DNA from: Providencia rettgeri
GTDB lineage: Bacteria; Pseudomonadota; Gammaproteobacteria; Enterobacterales; Enterobacteriaceae
Direction: 5' to 3'
Length of the DNA stretch: 64,000 nucleotides
NCBI RefSeq assembly: GCF_041075285.1
Contig: NZ_CP163512.1
Span: 1,488,001-1,552,000 of the forward strand
Positions 814 through 27,850 of the stretch are shown in pieces. A program made the position numbers and the translations under genes. Numbering within the stretch: position 1 is the first letter of the stretch; the number at the start of each line of letters is the position of its first letter. Under the pieces are notes generated by a model. It was not told where the DNA came from and did no database searches. It saw nothing but the letters and a program-made list of their open reading frames with translations.

Positions 814-1329
814 TTAATTAAAATTGATAAGTAACGTTGCCGTTGAGTGAACTGTTCCCCCCTTTAATGCTCTTTTATTTCCAACCTTGGGAGTCATCGT
901 TAAATAGGGTTTTTGATTATAAAAAAAGTTAATTTTTTCACCGAGTTTTATCGGGGCTCCGTCCGCTTTTAGAACCAAGCCAAGCTCTTTTTCGCTAGTC
1001 GCCAATAGATCTGAATCAAATTCAGCTGAAGCGCCGTTTATTGAAATGTTTAAAGAAGGGTTACTCGTTGCATTAGAACATTCAAGTATATAAGGTATTG
1101 ACATTTCATACATACTTCCATCAACTTTTGTAGCAACAATATCTTTAAAATCAATAATAATTGGTTGATTTGCCCCATCTTGGCTATATAGATCACATGT
1201 TTCTTCAGTTGTTATGACACTCACCTTAATCGTTGCAGTGGCAGCGTAACTAAGTTTCAGTGTCAGAAAACAAATAAGTATTACTTTTATAAATCTGAAC
1301 CAGAACAGTTTTAAGTCTTGGCTTTCCAT
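814..1329 (-). CDS. Minor fimbrial subunit
   Basis: About 171 residues if it starts at the internal ATG (1329). A hydrophobic segment ending LSYA is a good signal peptide. The mature part has the paired cysteines of pilins (one near TTEETCDL, one in LECSNAT) and a C-terminal beta strand ending TATLLINFN, as in subunits assembled by donor-strand exchange. The open frame actually continues upstream to 1470 through coding sequence of a different fimbrial subunit (see 1330-1505), so the true start is uncertain and the product could be a chimera. It lies between the chaperone and the adhesin genes. Confidence 0.6.
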   Translation of the reverse strand: MESQDLKLFWFRFIKVILICFLTLKLSYAATATIKVSVITTEETCDLYSQDGANQPIIIDFKDIVATKVDGSMYEMSIPYILECSNATSNPSLNISINGASAEFDSDLLATSEKELGLVLKADGAPIKLGEKINFFYNQKPYLTMTPKVGNKRALKGGTVHSTATLLINFN

Positions 1330-1505
1330 CACCAGTCGGCACGGGCTGTCTGTTAGCGATCCGCGAACCCGTAAAATGCTGTGCTGACCATCAACGTTCC
1401 AATTATTCACAACACGATAGTCCACTGGCGACGCCTCTCCACATCCCAAAGCAATGTTACCACTAAGCACAACTGCCAGTATGCTGCGTTATTCCATGCT
1501 CTCAT
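1330..1505 (-). pseudogene. 5' remnant of another fimbrial subunit gene, frameshifted
   Basis: A strong ribosome site (GGGGAAGG) sits four bases before an ATG at 1505. It opens a hydrophobic signal-peptide-like frame (MRAWNNAAYWQLCLVV) that stops after about 32 codons. In another frame the sequence continues as mature subunit-like protein (EASPVDYRVVNNWNVDG, then LTDSPCRLVMESQD), a pattern typical of Proteus/Providencia fimbrial subunits. This second part runs directly into the signal peptide of the next subunit. I read it as a subunit gene that lost its 3' part by deletion and also carries a frameshift between signal peptide and mature part. Confidence 0.55.
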
Positions 1506-1527
1506 CGCCTTCCCCTGATTTCGTACG

Positions 1528-2271
1528 TTACGATTTTTCACTCGCCACATGACACGCGCTACCTTGGCATGTAAAGCTTAATTCTGGTCGGCCACCGTAA
1601 TCATTAATCGTGATCAGTGTTGGATTGTTCCCTAACTGCGCACTACTTACCCCGAGACTTTCCTGACCAAACGGCGCTATCATCACCGGTGCAAAGCTGT
1701 TTGCATCGCCCTTTAAAGTTGGCGAAAATGCATTAATCACCGTCACGTAATACGGCGTCGGATTTTTCACCACCGCTTGCGATCCCGATTTATCCAGCGT
1801 CAGCTGGTTGATTGCCGGTTCACTATTATCAGCGGGAATGATCGCTTTCGGGCGATAAAACAGTTTAACTCGCGTTTGCAACGCCACCTGCAACACATTC
1901 GCTTTATCACTTTTCGGTGGAATTTCTCGCAAATTAAAGTAGAACAAGCTCTCTCTATCTTGCGGTAAGCTACTGGCCGTAACCGGTAATGCTTCAATTT
2001 TAATTTGACTCGTCTTACCCGGCTCTAATCGCTGTACTGGGGGCAACACCACCAATGGGCTATTCACTTTTTTGCCTTCGGAGTTTTCTAACCACCCTTG
2101 CGCTAAATAGGGTAAGCTCTGATTGTTATTACCAATATTTAACGTCATGGAAGTTTTATCTCCTTCAAAAATAATACGGGTGCGGTCCATCGTAATCCCC
2201 GCGGTGGCCAACTGACTGACCATCAAACCACACATCAGTAACCCGCTACGGGTCGTCTTATTCAACATCAT
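1528..2271 (-). CDS. Periplasmic fimbrial chaperone, PapD/MrpD family
   Basis: A protein of 247 residues that caps pilus subunits in the periplasm before they reach the outer-membrane usher. A signal peptide ends at LATAG. The N-terminal Ig domain carries the diagnostic chaperone signature RESLFYFNLREIPP near residues 106-119, with the G1 strand following (LQVALQTRVKLFYRP). The second Ig domain includes two late cysteines (FTCQGSACH), a common disulfide in this family. Length is normal. The ATG at 2271 follows an AAAGG site. Normally the usher gene comes just before it; here the upstream neighbour is an HTH regulator, so the operon is incomplete. Confidence 0.93.
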   Translation of the reverse strand: MMLNKTTRSGLLMCGLMVSQLATAGITMDRTRIIFEGDKTSMTLNIGNNNQSLPYLAQGWLENSEGKKVNSPLVVLPPVQRLEPGKTSQIKIEALPVTASSLPQDRESLFYFNLREIPPKSDKANVLQVALQTRVKLFYRPKAIIPADNSEPAINQLTLDKSGSQAVVKNPTPYYVTVINAFSPTLKGDANSFAPVMIAPFGQESLGVSSAQLGNNPTLITINDYGGRPELSFTCQGSACHVASEKS

Positions 2272-2435
2272 ACGTTTACCTTTTTTGATTCGGTCTGTTT
2301 CTGATTTAGGTACAGCGACAACCCACTGTCAAAATCAAATGATTATTAACACTCACAATAAACCCATACTTATTAAATAAGCATTAGCAGAGTACTTATA
2401 TTTTTATATTTAAAAATATAAGTTATAAAAACCAA

Positions 2436-2726
2436 TTAAAATTTATGAGAAAACTTATTCGAAATGACTGAATGAAAATAATCAGACCAATCCTTATTTA
2501 ACACTTGCAAATAATTATTTAGCATGTCAACAGAAATCTTACATAATCCATTTTCATAACGGGAAATTTGTTGCTGACTCAAATCCAATAATTTCCCTAA
2601 TTCTGCTCCTGTTAATGATTTTTCTATTCTTGCTGATTTCAAAAAATGACTTGTTTCTGTAGTAATATCGGGTGTAACTTTATGCCCTTCATAATCTTCT
2701 ATCTTATCTATATTAGCTAAAAGCAT
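2436..2726 (-). CDS. MrpJ-like HTH regulator of fimbriae and motility
   Basis: A 96-residue XRE-type helix-turn-helix protein. The motif SLTGAELGKLLDLSQQQISR (about residues 37-56) followed by YENG is the hallmark of the MrpJ group, which in Proteus mirabilis represses flagellar genes while fimbriae are made. The start at 2726 is chosen because AGGAGG lies seven bases upstream; a longer frame to 2765 lacks support. MrpJ genes usually end fimbrial operons; here the gene precedes the chaperone on the same strand, 164 bases away. It may be the end of a lost operon or an upstream regulator of this one. Confidence 0.75.
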   Translation of the reverse strand: MLLANIDKIEDYEGHKVTPDITTETSHFLKSARIEKSLTGAELGKLLDLSQQQISRYENGLCKISVDMLNNYLQVLNKDWSDYFHSVISNKFSHKF

Positions 2727-3353
2727 AGATAAGCCTCCTAAAAATTTAACATTACAAAAGCCCATTCCTCTTTGGATTTTATAATCTACTGACTACACTT
2801 AGACTAGATTTAAAATCCGGATATTTTGTTATTCTATTTTCTATCTCAAACAACAAACAAGATGCTTTAATTTAAAAGTAGACATAATACAGAAATAATA
2901 AATATTAATTAAACCGTATTCTTATTCTTTTTTCTCACTCAACATCTTTGATAGGCATACTATAGGTTCATCCCCTATTAGAGTAAAAATGTTTTAAACA
3001 ATGAAAACCACAACGCATCATAGGTGTGGGCTATCAAAAAATATAAAAACACATATTATAACCTATTAAAAATGAATTATAATTTCTTATATCTATATAT
3101 ATCAACAGATTAAGTTAGGTTGAGTAGCAAGCTTATAAAAATTAACATTATTAACATAGTTAAATTAACCTTTTTTTATACACAATAAAGGGGTTTTTAT
3201 TTTCATTTTGTTACAATCAGACCATGTTAGACATATGATTATTTTACTAATCCCCTCTACATTGCTTATCAAAAATATATCTTACTTATCAATCAAAAAA
3301 ATATTCTTACCAATAAAATATGTATTTTCCTGAAGTCGTCCACCAGAAAAACA

Positions 3354-14431: not shown

Positions 14432-15067
14432 TCACCAAGAAACCCATTCATTTGTCACCTTGCATTGCACAATAGCCCTTGGCGAGTTTTCGGTATAAAA
14501 ATTTTTTTTTGCCGAAGACACCAATGCATCTAAATTTTCAGGTTCAAGGGCTCCTTGCCATAAGTCAACCACAGTCGATCCCAACTTAAATTCATTTCGC
14601 CAATCCACTTTATCTCCGCTTCTATAATCATTAGTAGAGACCAAGGTAATGGTGTGATTATAATCAGGCAACTGTATGGTATAAGTTGAAAACCCATACT
14701 TAGGCGCTATCTCACAAATTTCTACCGCAGATAAACTGGCCATTTCGGCACACTGCCCTGGTTGACCATGAGTGGCCCTCACTCTTGCCGCTAATTCAAA
14801 AACGAAACGATTATCAAAAGGTGCATCTGACAAAGTTAAGTCAAACTTTCTCGCTGTATCGACTCTACGTTGTCGTATACTTTGATGGTTTTCATCGTAA
14901 TTATACTGCGTCAGACCATTTTGATTATGCGTGGGACGATCACAAATAGTGACATCTAGTCTAATAGGCTGTAGCTTCTGTGCTATTTCACTCCTCAACT
15001 GAAGTTGATCTAAAACGCTTTCATGTTGCACATTACAGCTCAATATTTCCTTTATTCGACTCAACAT
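14432..15067 (-). CDS. Possible papain/transglutaminase-fold effector or toxin
   Basis: 211 residues from the ATG at 15067, which has AGAG five bases upstream; a TTG seven codons earlier is less likely. No signal peptide. The order GQCAEMASLSAVEI (Cys about 106), NHTITLV (His about 138) and STVVDLWQG (Asp about 168) is the Cys-His-Asp pattern, including C-x-EMA and V-D-x-W, seen in bacterial transglutaminase-like cysteine proteases and deamidase effectors such as OspI. The N-terminal 80 residues are charged and helical, as in a secretion or targeting region. No immunity gene is adjacent. It sits at the downstream end of the pilus island. The family call is inference from motifs only. Confidence 0.45.
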   Translation of the reverse strand: MLSRIKEILSCNVQHESVLDQLQLRSEIAQKLQPIRLDVTICDRPTHNQNGLTQYNYDENHQSIRQRRVDTARKFDLTLSDAPFDNRFVFELAARVRATHGQPGQCAEMASLSAVEICEIAPKYGFSTYTIQLPDYNHTITLVSTNDYRSGDKVDWRNEFKLGSTVVDLWQGALEPENLDALVSSAKKNFYTENSPRAIVQCKVTNEWVSW

Positions 15068-15500
15068 AAAATCTCTTTTCTCTAACAAAACTATTCTTAA
15101 TTAGGTTAAGTAGAACAAATTAAACAAATATCTCCTTTCAATTATGTGTAATGTTTTACATAAATGATCTTATAGGTCGACATATTTTATTGTTTGGATA
15201 TTCCCCTAGTTATTGGTAAATTAATTTATAAGGAATTTTGATAATAATACAGGAGAGAAATGGAAATAAAAAAATAGGGAGTAAAGCAACAACTCCCCTA
15301 AATAGCGAATCATGAAAATGAAAGTAAATACTACTTACCCAAAAAATATAACCTAATAACTTAAATCAGACAACAGTTAAATTTAAATTATTATCATAAC
15401 CTTGCATTTAATTGAGTCATTCTATAATGGCACATGTAAAACATATTAAATTAATATTAAATAAATAAGCATAGGAATCATTCAACAAAAAATAGTCTTA
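15068..15500. other. AT-rich non-coding stretch downstream of the pilus operon
   Basis: About 430 bases without a gene. A weak stem (GGGAGT at 15277-15282 with ACTCCC at 15292-15297) is the only structure noted. It presumably holds the promoter of the minus-strand gene to its left. Confidence 0.5.
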
Positions 15501-16334
15501 TCAGTAAATAATTTGCTGATATAAATATAAAAGCATAATGCTTATACAGATTGCTGGGCCAAATGGCACATGATATTTATCATCGATATCATAATAAATG
15601 GCGTATTCCCCCCTATCTGGCTTATAATGATAATATCTCATGGCTAGATATATCCCGCCACCAATTAAAGAAGAAAATAAAATTAACCAATGTAACTGTG
15701 ATATCCCAACAAAAGTTGCGCCCGCCGCAAATAATTTTGCATCACCATCTCCAATTCCTTCTTTGCCTGTCATCCGTTGAAACAATATCATAATGCATTT
15801 GATCAGCATCCATATCATGATGCAACCCAAAACAGCTTGTAATGGGGAGACCGAAGTCCACTTCATAACAGCGCTTAGTAACCCTAACCAAATTAAAAAA
15901 TAATTTAACTCATCAGGAATAATAAACCATTTTAAGTCGATAAATATGATCGCATAGCAAACTGTGAAAATACCTAAGAAAACGAATAATGTGCTTATTT
16001 CCTTATCTGACGAATAACAGAAAAAAAACAAACCGAATACCAAACCAAAAACCAATTCTGATATTGGATATATCTTAGGTATCGAACAACCACAATGTCG
16101 ACATTGCCCTTTTAACAGTAACCAACTAAGTACTGGAATGTTATCTCGCTTATATACTTTACTCTCACAAACTGGGCAGTGAGAGGATGGGAAACTCAAG
16201 GATAGAGTTTCCGCTTCCCCTCGGGTGAATATCATAATAGGTAATCGATATATAACGACATTAATAAAACTACCAATACAACAGCCAATAATCATAGCCA
16301 GTATACTGTAAAAGTGATGAATAAATTGTTCCAT
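15501..16334 (-). CDS. Type IV prepilin peptidase, TcpJ/CofP/PilD family
   Basis: A 277-residue polytopic membrane aspartic protease that cuts and N-methylates the prepilins of this operon. The N-terminal signature GCCIGSFINVVIYRLP (about 17-32) is followed by a zinc-binding set of four cysteines (CPVC, then CRHCG). The two catalytic aspartates are in FIDLKWFIIPDELN and GIGDGDAKLF (the GxGD motif). The ATG at 16334 begins one base after the previous stop; a GTG at 16343 is an alternative that would overlap by 8 bases. Last gene of the operon, as tcpJ and cofP are in TCP and CFA/III. Confidence 0.92.
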   Translation of the reverse strand: MEQFIHHFYSILAMIIGCCIGSFINVVIYRLPIMIFTRGEAETLSLSFPSSHCPVCESKVYKRDNIPVLSWLLLKGQCRHCGCSIPKIYPISELVFGLVFGLFFFCYSSDKEISTLFVFLGIFTVCYAIIFIDLKWFIIPDELNYFLIWLGLLSAVMKWTSVSPLQAVLGCIMIWMLIKCIMILFQRMTGKEGIGDGDAKLFAAGATFVGISQLHWLILFSSLIGGGIYLAMRYYHYKPDRGEYAIYYDIDDKYHVPFGPAICISIMLLYLYQQIIY

Positions 16335-16335
16335 A

Positions 16336-17550
16336 TTAATCACAAGTCTTTAATACCGAGCCGTTCTTTTTATACTCATCATAATCTATATACACATTAT
16401 TATACGCATTTATACTTCCACGAAAATAGGTTACTCTATATTTCCCGCCATGCCCCATATGGAAATCAATATCTTTGGCGTCAATATTGGCATAAATAAA
16501 ATCTAATTTTTTAAGATTCATATCATATTCACTTAATTTTTGATTACCAGCAGCAGAAACTAATTCACCAAAGCTTAGATTTCCATTTCGAAATGCATCC
16601 CGCTCCCTTAAAAACTGCGCAGAGTAAAGTTCGCTTGTTGCAAGCTCTCTAATGACAGGACTACGGTTCCATTTCATATCCAAAGTGTATGTTTCTCCTA
16701 ACGTTATACTGCTATGTACACTGACGTTACCATGCGCTTGTTGACCAGTCTCTTCATCTCTTTCATAAGAGGTTCCCCACTTACTATTGCCTTTCCCAGA
16801 ATAAGTGACTTTTTTTAATTCTAATATAGGTGGTGTTGCTGTCTTCGGATTATAGCCAGCTTTCGCTTCCCAAATAAATGTAACTTCGCCAGGGGGTAGG
16901 CCTTCATACCCTGGTGGTATTTTAGGTTGTTCTAAATCTTTAATCTGTATAGTTAAGGTTTTTATCGAGCGACTTGGGAGCCAAATAATATCATCTGGCC
17001 GGCGTATTACCTCCTTAGTCTTAGTGCCTGCCATTTGTCCTTTCGGCTTATATGTTGCCGTATATCTTCCTTGTTCTTTTGTATAAACAATTTGGCTATA
17101 GTAAGGTTCAAACTTACGTTTCTGATGCGTCTTAGTTGGCAGGCCTATCCCAGCATCTGCGACTGACATATTGGGATATTCTCTCGCACTCATAGGCAAA
17201 GGAGATACTGGCATAACATCTTTTGATTGCCCAAATGTCGGTTTTTGGCCATTTGGCTTATAAACAGTATCCATTGAGAAAAAACTCGATGATTTTATTG
17301 GTATCCCCCTTTCCTTTTCAGACCAATAATCCGCCGTAACTTTAATTTCCAGTCGATTACTATACTTTGATCCCGACCCAAAATCACGTAACGTAGCAAT
17401 GAAAATAGGCAATGGGGTCGAAGTATTAGCGCACGCAGATAACAGTGGACTAGAACTAGAGCCTTCGACATAACTAATTCCCTGTGTCGGAGCAGCTAAA
17501 ACGACTGAGGGGGATAATAATAGTGCTGCACAGTATATTTTTTTCATCAT
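16336..17550 (-). CDS. Secreted protein in TcpF/CofJ position of pilus operon
   Basis: 404 residues from ATG 17550 (AAAGG ten bases upstream). Signal peptide MMKKIYCAALLLSPSVVLA, then a serine-rich N-terminal stretch (ISYVEGSSSSPLLSAC), a predominantly polar, beta-rich body and two cysteines only (near the mature N-terminus and at the C-terminus, KTCD). No pilin motif or membrane segment. In the tcp and cof operons the gene at this place, between the inner-membrane protein and the peptidase or regulator, encodes a soluble colonisation factor exported by the pilus system (TcpF, CofJ). I assign that role from position, length and export signal; sequence similarity to CofJ should be tested. Confidence 0.55.
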   Translation of the reverse strand: MMKKIYCAALLLSPSVVLAAPTQGISYVEGSSSSPLLSACANTSTPLPIFIATLRDFGSGSKYSNRLEIKVTADYWSEKERGIPIKSSSFFSMDTVYKPNGQKPTFGQSKDVMPVSPLPMSAREYPNMSVADAGIGLPTKTHQKRKFEPYYSQIVYTKEQGRYTATYKPKGQMAGTKTKEVIRRPDDIIWLPSRSIKTLTIQIKDLEQPKIPPGYEGLPPGEVTFIWEAKAGYNPKTATPPILELKKVTYSGKGNSKWGTSYERDEETGQQAHGNVSVHSSITLGETYTLDMKWNRSPVIRELATSELYSAQFLRERDAFRNGNLSFGELVSAAGNQKLSEYDMNLKKLDFIYANIDAKDIDFHMGHGGKYRVTYFRGSINAYNNVYIDYDEYKKNGSVLKTCD

Positions 17551-17563
17551 AATTAACTTACCT

Positions 17564-18592
17564 TTACATTTGAGACATTTTTGATAATTGATCTGAAAGC
17601 GAAAACAGTGCAATAAAAACCCAAATGACACATCCTCCGAGAATTAATGTTGAAAACGACTTTAATAACCCAGCTAATTTATCCATCTTGTCATTAATAT
17701 TATCTTTTGATTTTTCAGATACTGAAGTTAATACTTCATGAAACGACGGCAAAGCAGAATACAAACTTATATTTAGTAACTCATCAATATTGAGCAGCCC
17801 GGTATTCAATGCTTCTCCATAATTCATACCTTTAGCCATATTGTTCTGCATAATACGAATGTGGCTTTTCAACCAACGATTTGTATTCAAATTTAAAATG
17901 GTTAATGCATCATGAATTGGAATTCTATTTTTTAACATGCCAGATAGGCTATTTAAAACAATAGATGCATTCAATTGCTTAAAGGTAGAAAATGGTATTA
18001 TTTTATCAACGATATTATCCCTAATAGTCCCTGTCAGGTTAGCCATAACAATTCTAGTAGCTATGGAAAATAATATAATTGCGATGAGTATATAAACCCA
18101 TAAACCATGATATAACGCTAATCCAAATTCGTATAGTGAGCTTGTTACTGCAGGCCAGCGATTTACCGGTAATACTTTTTCGAAAGCAGGAAAAACCTTT
18201 ATTGAGTAACCCGCTATGACGACCATTGATAAAGCAATCATAATGAGAGGGAAAGTAATTGCCTTAATAATTTTCGACATTAATTGGTCTTTGTATTTTA
18301 TTATTTCAACGATACTGGTAAAACCATTAGCTAACGCTCCACTTTTTTCGGCAGAATAAATTAAGCTGAGTTCGTTTTTGGGAACCATACCATCAAAAAC
18401 AGAAGCAATAGATTCTTTGTTTGCCATTTTATCCAATAGGTAATTTAATTTTTTAACAAAACCTTTACCTATAACAGAAGCCCCTTCTTTTTTTAGCTTT
18501 ATAATTGAATCATAGAGTGGAAGATTGGAATTAATCATATCGGCACAAAATTGATATAAATATACCCGTTGCGACTTACTGAATTTTTTCAA
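17564..18592 (-). CDS. Inner-membrane platform protein, GspF/TcpE/CofI family
   Basis: 342 residues with two repeated helical cytoplasmic domains and three membrane segments (about 112-132, 163-185 and 315-335), the standard plan of PilC/GspF platform proteins. It contacts the assembly ATPase and turns to extrude pilin. Its start overlaps the ATPase stop by 17 bases. No length anomaly; the class IVb versions are of this size. Confidence 0.85.
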   Translation of the reverse strand: MKKFSKSQRVYLYQFCADMINSNLPLYDSIIKLKKEGASVIGKGFVKKLNYLLDKMANKESIASVFDGMVPKNELSLIYSAEKSGALANGFTSIVEIIKYKDQLMSKIIKAITFPLIMIALSMVVIAGYSIKVFPAFEKVLPVNRWPAVTSSLYEFGLALYHGLWVYILIAIILFSIATRIVMANLTGTIRDNIVDKIIPFSTFKQLNASIVLNSLSGMLKNRIPIHDALTILNLNTNRWLKSHIRIMQNNMAKGMNYGEALNTGLLNIDELLNISLYSALPSFHEVLTSVSEKSKDNINDKMDKLAGLLKSFSTLILGGCVIWVFIALFSLSDQLSKMSQM

Positions 18593-20120
18593 AAATTACC
18601 TCCATATCTTCTGATGGGACAACGCCAAATTCATGTGTAAACCAGTGATAGCAAACTTTATTTTCAATAACGAGCAGCATTGTTTTTTCTTTTATTTGAA
18701 ACCCTTCGCCTATTCCTTTACCTATAAATCGTTTTTTCCGCCAATACATATAAGCCTCTAGCCAATTACTTTTTGCCATCGCTGAAAGCTCATCTATTGA
18801 TGGAAGCATATATTCAACAACCAATTTCCGCCCTGCTATCCCTGTAAATTTGCAATGTTGACAACCGTGGCTATTTAAAGTTGAAACCTCCATTTGCCGC
18901 TGGCCAAACATCGCGACCTCTGGTTTTTTACAGTGAGGGCATAATATAGGCATGAGTTTTTGGCATTGTAGCCCCGCAATAAAACCTGGTGTACAAAGCT
19001 TATCGCCTGTAATACCCAGAGCAGATAATCGTTGTAATAACGTTACAATGCTCCCTGCATGAACCGTCGTAAAACAATAATGACCACTTTCAACCGCGCC
19101 AGATAATGCATTTGCCGAAATTTGGTCACGTATTTCACCAATCATCAGCACATCAGGATCTCGGCGTAAGGCAGACTTTATGGCAGAATGAAAACCGCCA
19201 CCATCAACATCAAGTACTGAACTTTGTTTTGTCCCGTAGATGTAATATTCAACGGGGTCTTCAACTGTCAAAAAACACCCTTTATTGTTATAGCGATTAA
19301 TTTGCAACCACTCAATGACTGTCTTTAATGTTGTTGACTTACCTGAACCCGTCGTACCTGCAATAAAATAAGCGCCATACGGATTACTCAAAATTGTTTT
19401 TATATCTTCAATTTCAACGGGTGATAACCCTGTATTCTCCAACCTAGGATTAGGGTTAGTATCCATAGTCGCAGGAATAATCCTTAATACACAGTGATAA
19501 CAGTCACTGGTTTCTCCAAATATCGGGAAATGAGCATAACGAAACCGGTATTTTTTCCCTTTTAAGTCATAGAGAATATTAGCACTTTGAGGCTGTTGCC
19601 TATTCCATGTGGTTTCTTTCGTTGTTGCCTCAACGTTATACAAAACAAAGACAAGTTCATCACAACTGGCCGATGTTAATTGTGAATATAAAATTAAAGA
19701 ACCGTTAACCCTAAATTCAATTTTAGAAATAACATCCCCACGGGTAATGTGTAAATCACTTGCTCCTGTGTCTACTGCCACCTGCAACAAACTTTCTAGC
19801 TCTTTTTGAACTTCACTCGTTTCATATAAAAGGTTATTGTTATTAGATTGAGTTGCTTTCTCAATAATTTGATAATATTGAGCTTCTGTACTTAACATAA
19901 ACCCAGATATATTTTTTTTATAAACTGACCTTGCATAATGAAGATCCATATAGACAGAAGCCAGTTTATCTATTTCAAACTTATTGATGATCAAATATTT
20001 CTTTTGGTTGTAGTCAACCGTAATTAACTTCTTTTCAAGTAACTCAAACCGGCATTTCTCCAATGCCTTTAGCCCATGCTCAATACTGTTTAATTCAATG
20101 AAATTAATAGGTTGTCCCAT
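18576..20120 (-). CDS. Pilus assembly ATPase, TcpT/CofH/GspE family
   Basis: 514 residues from ATG 20120, placed one base after the previous stop. Contains DTGASDLHITRG (N2 domain), Walker A GTTGSGKST, Asp box VEDPVEYYIYG, Walker B DPDVLMIGEIRD, and His box TTVHAGS. A later four-cysteine set (CPHCKKPE and HGCQHCKFTG) resembles the zinc-binding domain of GspE-type extension ATPases. It powers pilin polymerisation. No second, retraction-type ATPase is present in the window, in line with TCP and CFA/III. Confidence 0.9.
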   Translation of the reverse strand: MGQPINFIELNSIEHGLKALEKCRFELLEKKLITVDYNQKKYLIINKFEIDKLASVYMDLHYARSVYKKNISGFMLSTEAQYYQIIEKATQSNNNNLLYETSEVQKELESLLQVAVDTGASDLHITRGDVISKIEFRVNGSLILYSQLTSASCDELVFVLYNVEATTKETTWNRQQPQSANILYDLKGKKYRFRYAHFPIFGETSDCYHCVLRIIPATMDTNPNPRLENTGLSPVEIEDIKTILSNPYGAYFIAGTTGSGKSTTLKTVIEWLQINRYNNKGCFLTVEDPVEYYIYGTKQSSVLDVDGGGFHSAIKSALRRDPDVLMIGEIRDQISANALSGAVESGHYCFTTVHAGSIVTLLQRLSALGITGDKLCTPGFIAGLQCQKLMPILCPHCKKPEVAMFGQRQMEVSTLNSHGCQHCKFTGIAGRKLVVEYMLPSIDELSAMAKSNWLEAYMYWRKKRFIGKGIGEGFQIKEKTMLLVIENKVCYHWFTHEFGVVPSEDMEVIFEKIQ

Positions 20121-20121
20121 T

Positions 20122-20640
20122 TCACTCAACAACTCTATATTGGTTATTCTTTAGCACTACGCGATAGCGCATCCCATTCATTCTAAAAGGTGTGTTTTCA
20201 GTAACAAAAGAAACAGCATTATTTTCGCTATTCATTACCCCAATTTTTTTAACGCCAGCAACATGAGAAACCATAACGACCTTAGGTTTTTCTGCTGCTC
20301 GAATAGGGGCATCCATCAGTTCAGTAATTTTCTGATCGTAAGCGTCATTTTCTGGCTCATCATTCACTTTTTGTTCTGGCATTGAAGACTCATTCAGCAG
20401 TGCATTGACTTCCTGTAACTCTTTTTTTAATTTTGCTAAGGTGATCTGATTTTCAATGTTCAATTTTTCAGATTCAAACTTGAGATTATTTTGCATCAAA
20501 TTGATTATATTTTTTTGTTCGACAGATATGACTTCTGCCTCTTCTTGTGGATTTTCTATTGTTTCTGTTTGCGTATCATCAGCATAGGCAAATTGCGTGC
20601 TCATCATCAACGCTAAAATAGAAAACATTATCTTTTGCAT
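20122..20640 (-). CDS. TcpS/CofG-like periplasmic pilus protein
   Basis: 172 residues: signal peptide ending at FAYA, an acidic coiled-coil middle part (about 30-85, ENQITLAKLKKELQEVNALL), then a small C-terminal domain that resembles PilP-type periplasmic domains. Probably aligns the inner-membrane complex with the secretin. Assigned mainly from position in the operon. Overlaps the gene before it by 13 bases. Confidence 0.6.
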   Translation of the reverse strand: MQKIMFSILALMMSTQFAYADDTQTETIENPQEEAEVISVEQKNIINLMQNNLKFESEKLNIENQITLAKLKKELQEVNALLNESSMPEQKVNDEPENDAYDQKITELMDAPIRAAEKPKVVMVSHVAGVKKIGVMNSENNAVSFVTENTPFRMNGMRYRVVLKNNQYRVVE

Positions 20641-21449
20641 GCAAAAACTCCTGTTACTTTAATATTGTTGGTGCTTAGTTTTTCTATCGATTTGAAAACA
20701 TAAGAATCAAGATAAGGCTGTTTATCAAGTGAATACTTGACTTCTAATGGATTCGCACTAAGCACCATTTCAAATTTTGAAAAAAGTAATTGGTGACTAT
20801 CTGCAAAATCCCTGTATTTATTTTCTAAGTTAGCAACGGATGAAGATGGTAACTCATTCAATTTTATTTTATCTTCCTCTTTGCTTTTCGATGAGTTATA
20901 AGCATATATGTAGTTTATATAGTCATTACAATATGGAATAAATGAGTTATTAGGTCTGTTAATAATTTTGTCTTCTAATGCCTTATCTGCATATTTCAAC
21001 GCTAAACCAGAAAAATCTATACTATCTGAGCTAATTATGCCCTCGTAACTTTGATTAAAAAATACTTTATCTTGAACATTGAAAATGGCACCTTTTTTTA
21101 ATTTATAAGAAAAATCACAGCTATCTTCATTGCAAGTAAAGATATCCTCAGTAAACCCGCTGTAAGTAAATATATAGCTACTGCTCAAGATCTGCCCTAA
21201 TATAGTAATAAGGTCTTGGTATTGATAGCCATGGAATTGAGTTGAATAAAAATTTCTTATTTTATTTTTTTCATTTATGATGGTTTGTTGTTGTTTTCTC
21301 TCTAACTCCTCTTTTTCGGATTTTTTACTGTGCAAATAATAAGCTATTCCAGATGTGATAATAACGAATACAGTTAATATGCTAATAACCAATATATGCT
21401 TACTTTTTATCAAGCCATGTTCACGCCAGCCAGAAAGAATGTCTTTCAT
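20628..21449 (-). CDS. TcpD/CofF-like inner-membrane pilus protein
   Basis: About 273 residues from ATG 21449 (AAGG eight bases before). A short cytoplasmic stretch, one transmembrane helix (about 17-38, HILVISILTVFVIITSGIAY) and a large periplasmic domain with a few cysteines (FTCNEDSCDFSY and the C-terminal VFACKR). Topology and position match TcpD/CofF, part of the inner-membrane assembly complex (functionally like PilO/PilN). Sequence identity of this gene type is low among species, so the call rests on context. Confidence 0.6.
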   Translation of the reverse strand: MKDILSGWREHGLIKSKHILVISILTVFVIITSGIAYYLHSKKSEKEELERKQQQTIINEKNKIRNFYSTQFHGYQYQDLITILGQILSSSYIFTYSGFTEDIFTCNEDSCDFSYKLKKGAIFNVQDKVFFNQSYEGIISSDSIDFSGLALKYADKALEDKIINRPNNSFIPYCNDYINYIYAYNSSKSKEEDKIKLNELPSSSVANLENKYRDFADSHQLLFSKFEMVLSANPLEVKYSLDKQPYLDSYVFKSIEKLSTNNIKVTGVFACKR

Positions 21450-21459
21450 ACTAATAACC

Positions 21460-22002
21460 TTAATATAAGGATAGAATATATATAACAATAAAAAAAAGAA
21501 CTATACCAAACGCAATTGCCAGAGATAACTTCATTAGTTTATTTTTGTATTTTCTTTCCTGATTTAAATACTCTTCATATATTGTGCTAAATATCTCATC
21601 AGTAATAACCGTTACATCTAGTGAACGATATACTGAAGATTCCTTATGACTTAGAATATAGTTAAGCATACTTTCACTAATTATTGTATCTATGGGTGAT
21701 ATTACACTGTCATCTTTGATACAAATTAAGTAATAATTTATGACATCTCCATCAATAATCGGTGCATAGAAAAAACCATCACCATACAGCTCCTTTATGT
21801 AAAGTGCTAAAGTCTCATGTAATTTAACATGCTTTGGAAGTAGCACCTCCTTCATACCATGCTGTGTTTTGTAACGTATTTTTTTATATTTTTTCTTTTT
21901 TGATTCTAACCAGAAAAGATGTCGATGTTCGATAACTTGGCTTGGGTCAATCCATATCGCATTGATAGCAAGATTACTCTTTAACAATTCAGTTAATGTC
22001 AT
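21460..22002 (-). CDS. TcpR/CofE-like pilus assembly protein
   Basis: 180 residues, no signal peptide, with one C-terminal membrane helix (about 157-178, LSLAIAFGIVLFFIVIYIL). The N-terminal part resembles a small cytoplasmic adaptor such as the N-terminal domain of GspE/PilB-interacting proteins. In the tcp operon the equivalent gene lies between the secretin and TcpD, exactly as here. It starts three bases after the secretin stop. Confidence 0.55.
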   Translation of the reverse strand: MTLTELLKSNLAINAIWIDPSQVIEHRHLFWLESKKKKYKKIRYKTQHGMKEVLLPKHVKLHETLALYIKELYGDGFFYAPIIDGDVINYYLICIKDDSVISPIDTIISESMLNYILSHKESSVYRSLDVTVITDEIFSTIYEEYLNQERKYKNKLMKLSLAIAFGIVLFFIVIYILSLY

Positions 22003-22005
22003 AGC

Positions 22006-23484
22006 TTACTCATTAATTGAAAAATAGTTATCTATTCCTACAATCATAATAACCGTTGTATTAGAGTCACGACTCTCTAGAAGCCCAGAAAGTATCCCTA
22101 ATTTATCTTCATCGGATTCATTACTTTCATCATATTTACCCACAATGAGTAGATCTCCAGGTTTAATTACTGAAGTATTAAACATTTCTGTTGTGGTATA
22201 GTTTGGCAACTGAACATTGTCATATTTTTCAATATTAATTAAATTTTTCCGTGTAAAGCCACTCGCAACTTCAATTTTACCGTCAGAAAGTGCTCGAGGT
22301 GTAATAATGAAGCTGCTTCCCGTCACGATTTTGTCTGTGGTTATTTGGCTCTCTGTAATATCCATATTACTACTTTTAGTCGCCGTCCTTCCTGAAATAT
22401 AGTGCTGTGTTCTTGTCAGGTTTAGTGGGATGGGCGTATTATTACGAGTGATAAACGAACCACTTTGCAGGATCTTACTACCTGTTAGATTATAAACAGC
22501 ATCAAGTTGCGCAGCTAAACGGAACTTAGCATCTTCACCACCATGAAAATTTGAATTTGCATTAAGCTTCCCAGTTAGGTTTGTTAATAACCCTTGATTG
22601 AATCCAATTTGAGTTCCGCCACTATTATAGGAAAAACCCAGTTCCGCTTCTAAATTTTTAGATTTTGTTTTATCTAACAAGTAAATTTTGTAACTAACAA
22701 CAAATTGACGACTGTTAGCCTGCTTGTATTGCTCTAAAACTCTACTAAGGTGATTATATTCCGATTGTCGACCAACAAAGGTTAAAATAGATGAATCTTG
22801 AAAAATATTATAAACCCCTGAAGATACATATTTTTCCATCATATCTTTGACATCGTCCCAAAAAGTAGATTTAAAGGATGTTCCTGAATTTCCTTTCAAA
22901 CCACTGGAAGATACCGCTTCATTACCTGATATATCTAAACTTGCTTCATAACTACTATCTGCTCCATAGTAATCTAAATTAATGGCATAATTTGTGTATA
23001 AATTTAACTCAAGCAGATTACTTTTATTAAGTTGAATATTCACATCATACAAGTTAGATAAATAACTAATAAACTCTTTTAAATCACCATTAAAATTAAT
23101 TGCATATGCTGTATTTTTTAGTATATCCTCACCCGATACTGTATCATTTTGCGATTCTACAGGTAAACTTGTGTTAATTTTATAGGTTATCTCCATCTGT
23201 TCATTTAACATTTCAAGCACAGTGTAAATGTTTATGGGAGAATAGCTGTTTATACTTATTTCCTTATCAAGCAATTTCTTTTGCTGCCGATCATAGCTAA
23301 CTTCTTGCCCTAAGTATGAAGTATCTAACGACAAAAATGACTCTTGCTTACTATTGTCTATGTCTTGAAGTTCAGGTATTTTATCAAACAACTCTTTATC
23401 ATTATACTTATCTTCAAAAAAGCTTGTACAACCTTGAAGTAATACAGGCAATAAAATAAGGGCTAATCTATTCAATTTCATCAT
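22006..23484 (-). CDS. Outer-membrane secretin lipoprotein, TcpC/CofD/PilN family
   Basis: 492 residues. The lipobox ILLPVLLQGC gives a lipid-anchored N-terminus. An N-domain (about 85-165) is followed by a secretin pore domain (about 255-480) with typical sequence such as QLDAVYNLTGSKILQSGS and TTDKIVTGSSFIITPRAL. It forms the channel through which the pilus leaves the cell. Class IVb secretins of R64 PilN and TcpC type are lipoproteins of about this length. Confidence 0.88.
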   Translation of the reverse strand: MMKLNRLALILLPVLLQGCTSFFEDKYNDKELFDKIPELQDIDNSKQESFLSLDTSYLGQEVSYDRQQKKLLDKEISINSYSPINIYTVLEMLNEQMEITYKINTSLPVESQNDTVSGEDILKNTAYAINFNGDLKEFISYLSNLYDVNIQLNKSNLLELNLYTNYAINLDYYGADSSYEASLDISGNEAVSSSGLKGNSGTSFKSTFWDDVKDMMEKYVSSGVYNIFQDSSILTFVGRQSEYNHLSRVLEQYKQANSRQFVVSYKIYLLDKTKSKNLEAELGFSYNSGGTQIGFNQGLLTNLTGKLNANSNFHGGEDAKFRLAAQLDAVYNLTGSKILQSGSFITRNNTPIPLNLTRTQHYISGRTATKSSNMDITESQITTDKIVTGSSFIITPRALSDGKIEVASGFTRKNLINIEKYDNVQLPNYTTTEMFNTSVIKPGDLLIVGKYDESNESDEDKLGILSGLLESRDSNTTVIMIVGIDNYFSINE

Positions 23485-23495
23485 ATTTCAACTTA

Positions 23496-23939
23496 TTAGT
23501 TATCAATTACAAGAACATTGTTTTTTTCATAAAATTTAAGGTAGAAACCTGCTTTTTGGTAAGAGAGTTGTTTACCTAACTTTTCTAAAACTTGGATCTT
23601 ATCTTTTCCATTAATTTTAATTTCGTTAAAAATAACAATGTCTTTTTTGCTATTCCATATAAAATCAATGCCGTTAAATTTTGCCCAATCTTCAATACTT
23701 TGACTGAGTAATTCATTCTTTTTTAGGATTAATTGATTAATATTATCCATTTCAGCTTTGATCCCTTCTTGTTCAACGCCGATATTTAAATGTTGTTGAT
23801 CAGGTTGGGATGCATCAGGCAATACCTTGATTTCTTTCATTGGTTTTAAGTTACCCCATTCTTGTTGCTCCATTGCTGTATTAGCCAATGAGGGTAGAGC
23901 CATGCTACATAATAGAATAGTGATGGTTTTATATTTCAT
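23496..23939 (-). CDS. TcpQ/CofC-like secretin partner
   Basis: 147 residues from the ATG at 23939 (AAGG upstream; a longer frame to 24014 overlaps the minor pilin gene and is unlikely). Signal peptide MKYKTITILLCSMALPSLA. The C-terminal half (SIEDWAKFNGIDFIWNSKKD, then a beta-rich end) matches the TcpQ domain, which helps the secretin fold and reach the outer membrane. Order pilin, minor pilin, TcpQ, secretin is as in V. cholerae. Confidence 0.75.
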   Translation of the reverse strand: MKYKTITILLCSMALPSLANTAMEQQEWGNLKPMKEIKVLPDASQPDQQHLNIGVEQEGIKAEMDNINQLILKKNELLSQSIEDWAKFNGIDFIWNSKKDIVIFNEIKINGKDKIQVLEKLGKQLSYQKAGFYLKFYEKNNVLVIDN

Positions 23940-23967
23940 TAATTTTAATACCTTATGATTATTCGAG

Positions 23968-25614
23968 CTACGGCGCGACTCCATAATCTCCTTTAATTGA
24001 GCTACACCATTCAACCGCCATTATTGATAATGATTTTGGGTTAACATAAGTACTACTATCAGCTTTGCTTGGATCGTTAACACCCAATGAGGCACTAATA
24101 ACCCATGTTAGTTTCATTGGTGTATTGGCTGTTCCTGGGGCAGTTCCTATTCTAGGTTGTAATACTACCCCACTGGATATTCCTGTATTTTTAATTGCTT
24201 TGCCTCTGGTATGATATTCTTTGCTTAAATCAATATCTAAGCCGCCTTTGTTCTCATCAAAAATGACTGGCATCATTGATGAAACTGCCAGTGTTATTCT
24301 TGGCCATAACCTAACATTACCAACTACAGGACATAATTTTCTAGGAATAACAATCGTACCTTTTTCTTTTTCATCGTCGCCTTGATATTCCTCCTTAACG
24401 ATCATCCCTTTCTCATTACCTGTAAAATTATGGTAACTCACTTCTGGAACTGTCCGATATTCCTTAACTAATTTACCACCTTCGTAGTGACTGTCCTCAA
24501 TAACAACATTTGCTACTATAGTTGCCGACTTTTCATTCCCTTTATCATCATTCTTTGTTAACATAAAATTGCTATCGTCAAGATACTGAAAATTTGCATC
24601 AATATTTATATTTTGTTGTTTTCTGAGTTCTAAACAGACTCCTTCCTTATTATTTTGCAGATCCCAACATAATGCTGGCTTTTTATTATCCTTGTCTACA
24701 TCACCGCTAGTTAGTACTAATTTATTTTTATCATCATTTTTAGTTGATAAACAAGGACCATATTGTGTTGTTTTGGTATTCCAACATAATTTATCAGCAT
24801 GTACTGATCCATCAGATTTAAGATACTTCCCTGCTTTTATGTTAAAACTAAAACGAATTCCGTAGTCCAAATTATTATTGAAAGCGTCTATATTTGAAAC
24901 TAAATTACCAAAGTCAATATTCTTATTATTGTTTTTCGCTAATTTCCAGTGATTATTTTTATTGCTTTTTTCTTTAGTTACAATATCTGCTTGATTTAAG
25001 TAAAGATATTTATCCTTAAATGATTGCATAAAATTACTGTAAAAACTGTCCAGATATAAACGATCTTCTTCCGATTCTGGATGATATAAAACAATAAAAT
25101 CAGCTCGTTCAATAGTTTTCTTTTTTTGATCACCGACAAGATCAACTCGCTCTATAGAAAGCATCGGATTTTCACTAATTATCGGGTCTAGTTTACATTT
25201 TAGGAATTCTTTTTTCAGAAATAATCCAAGAGAGCTTCCTTGGCAGCTTTCATCTATAAAAAACTTTCTATGACTATTGTTCCCTTCCGGCCAATTAAAA
25301 TACATCTCGTTATAAGTGAGTTCATCTTCTATTTTATAGTTATCTACACGATAACCATATTCTGGAATCTTGTTATCTATTTGAAATAATGGATTGTATT
25401 TTAAGCTGCCATCAGGTAATTCCAGCTCATCATTATTGATAAAATCAATAAACCGATACATCTCATCTACTATTGCATCTGATATCTGTTGACGATGGTT
25501 ATTTTCAATTTTGTTAATAATAAACCGGCTTAATGGGATCATAATAACACCAATGAGCCCAAGCACGACAATGATTTCAAGTAATGAATAACCAGCTATT
25601 CTATTATTTCTCAT
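23968..25614 (-). CDS. Minor pilin, TcpB/CofB type
   Basis: 548 residues with a short class III leader, MRNNRIAG, cut before YSLLEIIVVLGLIG. The conserved glutamate at mature position 5 is present; tyrosine at position 1 is unusual (Met or Phe is common). The long extracellular region contains a WDLQNN-type repeat-like part around residues 240-330 with several Cys-Trp elements. CofB and TcpB initiate pilus growth and, in CFA/III, form a tip trimer that anchors the secreted CofJ. Length is close to CofB (about 518). Confidence 0.82.
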   Translation of the reverse strand: MRNNRIAGYSLLEIIVVLGLIGVIMIPLSRFIINKIENNHRQQISDAIVDEMYRFIDFINNDELELPDGSLKYNPLFQIDNKIPEYGYRVDNYKIEDELTYNEMYFNWPEGNNSHRKFFIDESCQGSSLGLFLKKEFLKCKLDPIISENPMLSIERVDLVGDQKKKTIERADFIVLYHPESEEDRLYLDSFYSNFMQSFKDKYLYLNQADIVTKEKSNKNNHWKLAKNNNKNIDFGNLVSNIDAFNNNLDYGIRFSFNIKAGKYLKSDGSVHADKLCWNTKTTQYGPCLSTKNDDKNKLVLTSGDVDKDNKKPALCWDLQNNKEGVCLELRKQQNINIDANFQYLDDSNFMLTKNDDKGNEKSATIVANVVIEDSHYEGGKLVKEYRTVPEVSYHNFTGNEKGMIVKEEYQGDDEKEKGTIVIPRKLCPVVGNVRLWPRITLAVSSMMPVIFDENKGGLDIDLSKEYHTRGKAIKNTGISSGVVLQPRIGTAPGTANTPMKLTWVISASLGVNDPSKADSSTYVNPKSLSIMAVEWCSSIKGDYGVAP

Positions 25615-25626
25615 ATTTTGTCTCTC

Positions 25627-25652
25627 GAACCTCCCTAATTATAGGGAGGTTC
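25627..25652 (-). terminator. Perfect hairpin between major and minor pilin genes
   Basis: GAACCTCCCT and AGGGAGGTTC form a 10-bp stem with a six-base loop. It lies 27 bases after the pilin stop and before the minor pilin. No U run follows, so it probably acts as a leaky terminator or as an RNA stabiliser that raises pilin relative to assembly proteins. Confidence 0.7.
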
Positions 25653-25678
25653 TTTAGCAAGTTATTATTGCTTATGAA

Positions 25679-26425
25679 TTAACGGCTACCTAAAATAACT
25701 GAGTTTTCAGGGCTGTCGATACATACAAGAGCTACTTTGTCTGGTGTAATGTTGACATTACCAGTCGAATTTAATGAACGCAAAATAGCATCTGATGTTG
25801 CTTCACCGCCTTCACCTGTAGGGGCAACGGACATATCTACAGCACTTGTCACCTTGTATGTTCCTGCTGGAGCAGTTGTGACAGATACATAATCCCACTG
25901 ATTACCGACCTGTGAAATAATATTACGGCACTGATCTTGGTTTAACCCATTTATCTCAACGACAAAGCCTTTAAGTCCAGTATCAGTTTGGCCTGCTGCT
26001 GTTTTCGCACCACCAATATTGACAAAGTCATTCGAAATACCGTTACGCGCTTCATCAATCGATAATTTACCTAATTGAACAAGACGTGCTACGGCTTCTT
26101 TTGCCTCTCCCGTCTTCCTGATGTTATCGACGGTATATCCACTCGCGGCACCTGTTGATACTGGGTATCCAGAAGCGCGCTGATAAGCATCTTTCATTGC
26201 AACACGAATGGTGTTGGTATTGCTAACAACATCAGATACTGCACGGCTATCAAAGGCACGTTGTGCCAGTACTACAACCCCCGCAGCAATTGTCCCAATA
26301 ATACCAAGAACAATGATAATTTCTAATAATGTCATTCCTCTTTGTTTTTTGGCTTCATGGTGTTTACGGACTTTTTGTAGCAGTTTCATTTTTAAATTTT
26401 GTGTCTGTTGATAGACTTTAAACAT
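25679..26425 (-). CDS. Class IVb major prepilin, TcpA/CofA/LngA family
   Basis: 248 residues. A 30-residue basic leader ends KKQRG and is followed by MTLLEIIIVLGIIG, with Met1 and Glu5 of the mature protein as in TcpA. The next segment, AGVVVLAQRAFDSRAV, is also very close to TcpA/CofA. Two cysteines, DQCRNI and ALVCID, match the D-region disulfide of class IVb pilins. GAGGA lies seven bases before the ATG. First gene of the operon. Confidence 0.92.
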   Translation of the reverse strand: MFKVYQQTQNLKMKLLQKVRKHHEAKKQRGMTLLEIIIVLGIIGTIAAGVVVLAQRAFDSRAVSDVVSNTNTIRVAMKDAYQRASGYPVSTGAASGYTVDNIRKTGEAKEAVARLVQLGKLSIDEARNGISNDFVNIGGAKTAAGQTDTGLKGFVVEINGLNQDQCRNIISQVGNQWDYVSVTTAPAGTYKVTSAVDMSVAPTGEGGEATSDAILRSLNSTGNVNITPDKVALVCIDSPENSVILGSR

Positions 26426-27024
26426 AGGTATTCCTCAAGAATTTAATCTGATTTGATTTATTTTATTTATTTCAAACTTTACATTACACGTTACAACTAT
26501 AATAACTAAACTAATAACTCTATTGACTAATTAAGTTCCTTATAACTTCCTTTCGTTGAAGTAATTATTAATTTAAATTATTTTCCAGTCAACACGGTTT
26601 TATTATTGTAATTATTTTTCACGTAAACAAATCGTAATTATCATTAACTTTATTTTAATATTTCATACAACGACTATATCGCACACATATATATTTAATA
26701 CATCAGCCGTATGTATTACCTCGCCAATTAGGATTATTCCTAATGTTATTTTTAATTAAAGAAACATTCTCTTACATTATTTATTCTAAATCACTCATTG
26801 CAACCATATACAAATAAGTAATATTAATATATTTTACACTATATTCGACTAAATACCCTTATTTGGGGTAATAAATGCTTGTCAAATACAATTTATTAAG
26901 CTTACTTGAAGTTGTAAGCAAAATTGTAAGCTAGAATTTAGTCGAACTACTACTTTTACTAATTAATATCGCTATAGCTATACTAAGGTTTGTAGGCAAA
27001 TAGCACTGATATGAGATTATAAAT
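26426..27024. other. AT-rich control region upstream of the pilus operon
   Basis: About 600 bases without a gene. It must hold the pilin promoter (leftward) and the promoter of the small gene at 27025. TTGTAAGC occurs twice, 12 bases apart (26912 and 26924), and GCTTAC pairs with GTAAGC nearby. The high AT content suggests H-NS silencing. I do not see a clear sigma-70 promoter. Confidence 0.5.
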
Positions 27025-27276
27025 ATGGCATACTCTAAATTAGCATTTACTGGCACATCGTTTACATCTAACCATGAATCCACACTTACTTCTAAAAAAG
27101 AGAGAGCAATTAAACCTGATTTAAAAAAAGCAAAGTTAATACAAGTTCCAATGATATATATTGATGCGTTTGAAAATATCAAAAGTGAAGGCTACACATC
27201 GTTATCATTCTCTTCTTATCTTATAGAGGCATTGAAGGAAAAAATTATTTGTGATGTTTCTCGATTAGATTCATAA
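27025..27276 (+). CDS. Small ribbon-helix-helix-like protein, possible regulator
   Basis: 83 residues. After a polar N-terminus, the part LIQVPMIYIDAFENIKSEGY (about 38-57) followed by a second helix (SFSSYLIEALKEKII) suggests the strand-helix-helix of RHH DNA-binding proteins, similar to conjugation or plasmid repressors. It is followed by a good terminator and transcribed away from the pilus operon. It is the only candidate regulator beside the pilin promoter. Family not identified; the ribosome site is weak. Confidence 0.5.
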   Translation: MAYSKLAFTGTSFTSNHESTLTSKKERAIKPDLKKAKLIQVPMIYIDAFENIKSEGYTSLSFSSYLIEALKEKIICDVSRLDS

Positions 27277-27304
27277 GCTATATTGACTTACAGAGTATAA
27301 CATA

Positions 27305-27350
27305 AAAAGATCGCGTATCTCATATTTAATGAAATACGCGATTTTTTTTA
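27305..27350 (+). terminator. Rho-independent terminator after small RHH-like gene
   Basis: ATCGCGTAT...ATACGCGAT forms a strong stem with a short loop (27310-27342), followed directly by eight T residues. It lies about 30 bases after the stop. Confidence 0.85.
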
Positions 27351-27400
27351 TTCTTCAATTACAATAACAATTAAACTAAATAAGTTACAGTTCTTTTAAT

Positions 27401-27664
27401 TTAACGATAGCCTCGACGATGATTTGCTGATGACCAACTGTATGTTGTATCACTAGGTGCTAATTTATCTTTTTTTTGCTGAGCCCTTAGTTTCTTTGCT
27501 TCTTTATCCACTTCTTTGGATATTTCAGAAATAATTTCCTTTTTGACTTTAGCTTGTTCAGCATTGGTTAATTCACGCTCTAGCTTTTTACGTTCTTGCG
27601 CCAACCGTGTTCGAACGCGGTTTTTTTGTGTTTCTGTCATTTCTTGGATAGTTAACATTTTCAT
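27401..27664 (-). CDS. Small charged coiled-coil protein, unknown
   Basis: 87 residues from ATG 27664, which has AAGGGG seven bases upstream. Nearly the whole sequence is a charged helix (about 10-70, rich in Lys, Glu, Arg), with a polar Ser/Arg tail. No known domain. It could be a structural or nucleic-acid-binding accessory protein of the adjacent pilus island or a small housekeeping gene; nothing decides. Not the same strand as the RHH-like gene. Confidence 0.45.
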   Translation of the reverse strand: MKMLTIQEMTETQKNRVRTRLAQERKKLERELTNAEQAKVKKEIISEISKEVDKEAKKLRAQQKKDKLAPSDTTYSWSSANHRRGYR

Positions 27665-27850
27665 TGACCGCCCCTTACTCATGTTTCATTACCATAATTC
27701 AATATATCACCACTGATAACCCTATAACATAAAAAACTGAGCTTCTTTGCAATATCATCACCTTAATTGATTTAGCATTGGCTGCAAAAATGCAGAATTA
27801 AGCGTATAGTGTTGCCCATTGCCTACTTAAATGAACCTATTGTCATCATT

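Follow-up and report, generated by a model that had tools for sequence, protein, structure and literature searches.

In the Providencia rettgeri genome analysed here, an operon of eleven genes encodes what appears, judged from its sequence, to be a complete, self-contained and probably functional class IVb pilus of the kind known from the toxin-coregulated pilus (TCP), colonization factor antigen III (CFA/III) and longus. The operon lies in a stretch of 64,000 nucleotides (positions 1,488,001 to 1,552,000 of contig NZ_CP163512.1; here called the window), which belongs to a single-contig genome of 4.35 Mb. The pilus itself is of a known kind, although it forms a new branch; the new parts of the locus are a likely cargo family, represented by gene 10 of the operon, and a conserved control region upstream of the pilin gene. 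The explanation that accounts best for the data, and which we consider likely as a whole, is that a complete class IVb pilus exports the gene 10 protein as its own cargo and is controlled via the divergent upstream region.

Identity and integrity of the pilus operon

The operon occupies positions 15501-26425 of the window on the minus strand, to which all eleven genes belong. An earlier note on this DNA, made from the letters and a list of open reading frames, had described it as complete and as following the gene order of the tcp and cof operons; both statements were confirmed, all eleven reading frames being open and unbroken. The major pilin (25679-26425) is of the CofA/TcpA type, it matches the Pfam families TcpA and N_methyl above their gathering cut-offs and its best relative of solved structure is CofA (PDB, E 7e-62). 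The minor pilin (23968-25614) is of the CofB type with a lectin-like C-terminal domain, it matches three CofB Pfam domains above cut-off and aligns with CofB over residues 38-539 (PDB, E 2e-57). In the translations, MTLLE follows a leader of 30 residues in the major pilin, and the minor pilin reads YSLLE, so that Glu5 is found in both. The TcpQ-like protein (23496-23939), the start of which was placed at an ATG inside a longer frame (23496-24014), the inner-membrane platform (TcpE-like, 17564-18592) and the dedicated prepilin peptidase (TcpJ-like, 15501-16343) exceed the cut-offs of Pfam TcpQ, T2SSF and A24_N_bact/Peptidase_A24, respectively. The assembly ATPase (TcpT-like, 18576-20132) matches Pfam T2SSE with E 2e-78 and its GTTGSGKST motif is invariant in seven loci.

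For the secretin lipoprotein (TcpC-like, 22006-23484) the family matches are weaker: six other loci have homologues with 44-81% identity at this place, but the matches to Pfam Secretin (E 0.002) and to a PilN-type secretin model (E 9e-9) are both below the models' own cut-offs. Genes 5-7 passed no family cut-off in searches of the family libraries, and neither did gene 10 (16336-17547). Genes 5-7 were assigned to the TcpR (21460-22002), TcpD (20628-21446) and TcpS (20122-20640) positions because the same places are held by homologues in the six other loci. Gene 10 had been counted among the eleven by the earlier note, which overlooked its likely identity as a cargo and also a divergent 83-amino-acid gene at 27025-27276.

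The locus thus combines a long-leader pilin of the TcpA/CofA type, a single large minor pilin of the CofB/TcpB type with Glu5 and, in one operon of tcp/cof order, TcpQ, the secretin (below cut-offs), the ATPase, the platform and its own peptidase, which are the features of class IVb. A conjugative thin pilus of the PilV/shufflon type was considered and dropped, as the pilin, the minor pilin and the gene order are of the CofA/CofB kind.

A CofB_C match was found in five of 24 Providencia genomes and, in a sample of 394 genomes of the order, in three, among them this genome. In four of the five carriers, this genome and those designated G005, G006 and G012, the operon lies beside selU and yjbD, while in the fifth carrier, G001, a less closely related operon with a CofB of 37% identity is found elsewhere in the genome. 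In G006 the TcpR-position frame (L012 10387-10935) has no equivalent of the N-terminal third that is kept in other loci, and stop codons precede the frame. The few carriers (five of 24 species) would fit a locus that is intact but silent, or that serves aggregation or biofilm formation only and has no role in animals. This is considered unlikely, since all eleven frames are open and the operon genes are under purifying selection, with ratios of nonsynonymous to synonymous differences per site (pN/pS) of 0.10-0.54 in three comparisons with the window.

Relationship to known type IVb pili

The affiliation of the pilin with TcpA, CofA and LngA that was proposed earlier held in pairwise scores: CofA is the closest relative in the PDB with 212 bits, followed by TcpA with 82 bits, whereas geopilins and type IVa pilins score 13-23 bits. 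Relatives of the pilin were found in 64 and relatives of the minor pilin likewise in 64 of 72,556 plasmid records, all of them from Escherichia. The pilin is 54-57% identical over its full length to CofA/LngA-type pilins in the best 15 of the 64 records. Compared to the CFA/III (cof) and longus (lng) systems of Escherichia, the ATPase is 59% and CofB 31% identical (best 8 records listed in each case) and all CofB Pfam domains are common to both. These Escherichia relatives are plasmid-borne, whereas the Providencia operon is chromosomal. Gene 10 has no sequence similarity in the 72,556 plasmid records, including the 64 with CofA/CofB relatives. The CFA/III system possesses the AraC-type gene cofS; the Providencia operon, in contrast, has no adjacent gene of this type.

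With the tcp operon of Vibrio cholerae the locus shares the gene order, the single large minor pilin with Glu5, an operon without a retraction ATPase and, at the position of TcpF, a candidate cargo. It differs in its pilin, which by the scores above is nearer to CofA than to TcpA, and in lacking a toxT-like gene between the genes for cargo and peptidase. The type IVb loci of Rahnella, Citrobacter, Kluyvera, Enterobacter, Pseudescherichia and other enterobacteria encode the same machine (ATPase 56-65% identical). Searching by the ATPase yielded 16 type IVb loci, 14 from outside Providencia and those of P. rettgeri and P. vermicola, in which signal peptides and some of the peptidases were judged by eye. 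In 12 of the 14 non-Providencia loci a signal-peptide gene from other cargo families lies in or near the cargo slot. A Peptidase_M23-type gene follows the prepilin peptidase in 12 of the 14 (by eye; three of three scanned match), the contigs of the remaining two ending early, whereas it follows in none of the five Providencia loci.

The earlier note was also right that no retraction ATPase is evident in the operon; yet this is normal for the class, as described in two reports (PMC9565799; PMC5207764). One T2SSE protein is found among the eleven; outside the operon the genome encodes a single further ATPase of the superfamily, a distant one, PilT not having been searched for. It was shown that TCP retracts without a retraction ATPase and that this requires Glu5 of TcpB (PMC5207764).

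By analogy, CofB-like trimers would start and cap a CofA-like filament, which would be extended by the ATPase, passing through the secretin. A CofB subunit inserted by way of its Glu5 would let the filament retract without a retraction ATPase. The gene 10 protein would be carried to the periplasm by Sec, would dock by means of its N-terminal G-x-x-Y segment in the tip cleft of the CofB trimer and would be pushed out by pilus extension and released, as proposed for TcpF and CofJ. The pilus may have a role in colonization or aggregation, and transcription would probably be set through the conserved divergent upstream region and not by an adjacent AraC protein.

Gene 10 as the likely cargo of the pilus

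Gene 10 is located between platform and peptidase, the place of tcpF in tcp, and its product carries a signal peptide by eye. Among the 16 type IVb loci, nine place a signal-peptide gene between the platform gene and the peptidase gene, four have one after the peptidase and one (L026) after the platform, where the contig ends before the peptidase. A protein search with gene 10 yielded 14 relatives; the five with an organism name are all from Providencia. Gene 10 was found in four of 60 genomes searched, all four among the 24 of the genus.

Within the mature N-terminal region, after the signal peptide, G25 and Y28 are invariant in all 15 family members. These residues are part of a predicted export (docking) segment T-Q-G-I-S-Y (17470-17487, minus strand), an aromatic-bearing segment as expected of a pilus cargo. 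The G-x-x-Y segment matches none of the three published docking motifs exactly (PMC9565799). A 13-residue signature derived from other type IVb cargos recovers all 15 gene 10 family members. As a pattern it missed one of eleven cargos offered (L033), and as a matrix it scored low on the cargo of L022 and on both cargos of the G001/Proteus type. The latter form a 31%-identical pair of signal-peptide proteins encoded after the peptidase, in G001 (L010 5120-6289) and in Proteus myxofaciens (L024 6127-7254), and are without the cargo signature; G001 has in addition a small helix-turn-helix gene (L010 16135-16425) upstream of its pilin gene. In profile comparisons gene 10 aligned best at the signature site in three of five cases, with low probabilities of 18.5, 2.4 and 0.7%, and in none of five with reversed sequences. 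An apparent match of 86% to the Kluyvera-type cargos, obtained with profiles that contained the signal peptides, was rejected because the aligned stretch starts in the signal peptides; with these cut, the match to the Kluyvera-type cargo profile is 16-18% and covers the signature only. A fold search with a poor model of the protein placed CofJ first of 350,542 PDB chains, with weak scores and an E-value that is not significant.

Gene 10 is also the least conserved gene of the operon, with 58, 48 and 45% identity to its counterparts in G005, G006 and G012, compared to 85-88% for ATPase and platform. Its pN is the highest among 13 genes in all three comparisons, with a pN/pS of 0.40-0.54 at a pS of about 0.7, which is near saturation. 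In the closest pair, G006 and G012, gene 10 again has the highest rate of nonsynonymous substitution (dN), but in dN/dS it is exceeded by the peptidase and three further genes.

Several results weigh against gene 10 being a cargo. Its sequence gave no match in Pfam, NCBIfam and the PDB apart from a single chance match (E 1.6), it shows no similarity to the proven cargos CofJ and TcpF and was therefore not filed in that family, and the AlphaFold model used in the fold search, built with the 14 relatives, is of poor quality. Furthermore, the cargo slot is empty in two of the 16 loci, L031 (Lelliottia) and L038 (Huaxiibacter), where no gene lies in or near it and platform and peptidase are about 170 bp apart. 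The pilus could accordingly be real and gene 10 a periplasmic assembly or accessory protein, or a protein that leaves by another route. This is regarded as improbable, as an assembly part would be expected to resemble the conserved ATPase and platform and not to be the fastest-diverging protein of the operon, and as the invariance of Gly and Tyr close to the N-terminus of the mature protein and the first rank of CofJ, poor as the model is, fit a cargo better. As to the missing similarity to CofJ, the cargos of the other type IVb loci do not match CofJ by sequence in the PDB either, so that the cargo class as such is not tied to CofJ by sequence. Gene 10 is thus likely to represent a new cargo lineage, exported by the pilus by means of a G-x-x-Y signal at the N-terminus.

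So far, cargo choice and export by such pili are known from two pairs, TcpB-TcpF and CofB-CofJ (PMC9565799). The Providencia locus would add a third pair, with a cargo that has no sequence similarity to the other two, and its 15 natural variants with a conserved G-x-x-Y make the docking rule testable.

The candidate divergent control region

No ToxT- or CofS-like AraC regulator adjoins the operon, as stated earlier: none is present in the lists of open reading frames, and AraC-like frames (by eye) are located at 54-58 kb, more than 27 kb away. The conclusion drawn from this, that control must differ, takes a more definite shape with a candidate local regulator and operator. The candidate regulator is the 83-amino-acid gene (27025-27276, plus strand), which is oriented divergently to the pilin gene, has counterparts of 84-88% identity at the other three selU-linked loci and is present in four of the 24 genomes with no match in the other 20. 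As pS is 0.61-0.65 with a pN under 0.10, the frame is a real gene. Of its family, nine proteins were identified, including that of this genome; the two with an organism name are from Providencia. The protein resembles ribbon-helix-helix proteins by eye only; it has no family and no PDB relative, no ribbon-helix-helix match was obtained up to E 10, and a low-confidence model with two helices gave no Foldseek match.

Within about 1 kb upstream of the pilin gene, the sequence ATTAGGA-ATAA-TCCTAAT (26727-26744) is the single perfect inverted repeat (arms of at least 7, spacer up to 12) with arms invariant in the four genomes, and the whole palindrome of 18 nucleotides is invariant in these carriers. 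It represents a candidate operator. The pattern ATTAGGA-N4-TCCTAAT has six exact sites in the 24 Providencia genomes. Four of them precede the four pilin genes, one each; the remaining two are both in this genome, at a distance of about 310 and 1,060 bp ahead of subunit genes of chaperone-usher operons. Read backwards, the pattern has one site in the 24 genomes, and base composition predicts 0.04 per genome. Since this genome has 14 usher matches above cut-off, it would be unusual for two of them to be preceded by such a site by chance. A site with one mismatch precedes an mraZ-like, non-fimbrial gene.

The exact palindrome and the 83-amino-acid gene occur only in the four of the 24 genomes that carry the selU-linked locus. 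Both were inherited together in the four loci, so that their co-occurrence alone is no proof of binding. A serious rival reading, which concerns control only, is that the palindrome is a box of the Rcs phosphorelay, bound by RcsB alone or with a partner, and that the 83-amino-acid gene is unrelated to it. The palindrome core agrees with the RcsAB consensus in 12 of 14 bases at the pilus and in 13 of 14 at both fimbrial sites (consensus as quoted in PMC4325325). However, the conserved A at position 3 of that consensus is a G in all three sites. In addition, 20 of the 24 genomes have no exact copy of the palindrome, although Rcs is widespread in the order. Control by Rcs is considered somewhat less likely than not, and transcription is probably set via the conserved divergent upstream region.

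Taken together, cargo and control region allow the more tentative and rather doubtful proposal of a distinct type IVb lineage, with its own cargo family bearing a fourth tip-docking signal, G-x-x-Y, and its own 83-amino-acid regulator and 18-nucleotide operator shared with two fimbrial operons. If so, the cargo would have been remodelled while the machine remained fixed, with only a short beta-strand-like signature in common with other enterobacterial cargos, and the pilus and chaperone-usher fimbriae would be switched together. The 18-nucleotide site offers a way to test whether a type IV pilus and chaperone-usher fimbriae are controlled jointly.

Distribution and origin of the locus

The low base composition of the operon, from which the earlier note had derived horizontal acquisition, was confirmed: its guanine-plus-cytosine content is 34.3%, compared to 40.3% for the window outside 15000-27700, and none of 150 stretches of equal length from other parts of the window falls below 38.0%, the lowest value among them. 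Horizontal acquisition is thereby supported indirectly, as it is by the scattered occurrence of CofB_C in the genus and by the selU neighbourhoods. In 20 other selU neighbourhoods of 13-16 kb each, that of G001 included, no operon gene was found; yjbD adjoins selU in 13 of the 20, and the window genes at 6.2-8.0 kb (old yellow enzyme and TetR by eye) are near selU in three. These operon-free neighbourhoods with shared flanks suggest that the stretch between the flanking genes was inserted in this genome or lost in others. The left neighbour of the operon is one gene in the window, another in G005 and another in G006/G012, and an exact empty site is therefore not definable.

Sequence identities within the locus are mosaic. 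The pilin and selU of the window are nearer to G006/G012 (81-84%) than to G005 (68-72%), whereas CofB, TcpR, TcpD and gene 10 are nearer to G005, which suggests recombination inside the locus. In the open-licence literature, most subscription journals being outside the search, no title among those listed concerned a type IVb, TCP- or longus-type pilus in Providencia; the passages searched in PMC12016157 mention only type IV pili and PilL.

Several neighbouring features were observed besides. At the right edge of the locus, a terminator-like hairpin (27310-27342, minus strand) was found by a scan between the 83-amino-acid gene and yjbD; it is in part invariant among the four genomes. The left neighbour in the window is a gene of 218 amino acids (14432-15088, minus strand) without a Pfam family and present in one of the 24 genus genomes, in which a Cys-His-Asp arrangement resembling that of transglutaminase-type enzymes was seen by eye. 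In G005 a metalloprotease gene of the Peptidase_M66/StcE/TagA type (Pfam; L011 14906-17290) adjoins the pilus operon, as tagA adjoins tcp in Vibrio. In G006 (L012 3-3983) and G012 (L013 14972-18001) the gene adjoining the peptidase gene resembles the large A component of an insecticidal Tc-type complex by eye. Distant relatives of the 83-amino-acid protein (46-52% identity over 41-42 residues) adjoin genes for type III secretion in the genomes G000 and G005. No copy of the palindrome lies in the retrieved regions around these paralogues, which hence do not share the site. The G000 region (L073 3096-9763; G000:C1, about 3.705-3.712 Mb) contains by Pfam genes for a secretin N0 domain of the type of Salmonella pathogenicity island 1, a YscD-like protein, a needle E protein and a SpaK-like protein as well as a SopA-like gene, all beside the distant relative. 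Finally, the left end of the window (814-2765) harbours chaperone-usher fimbrial genes together with a small helix-turn-helix gene that is MrpJ-like by eye.

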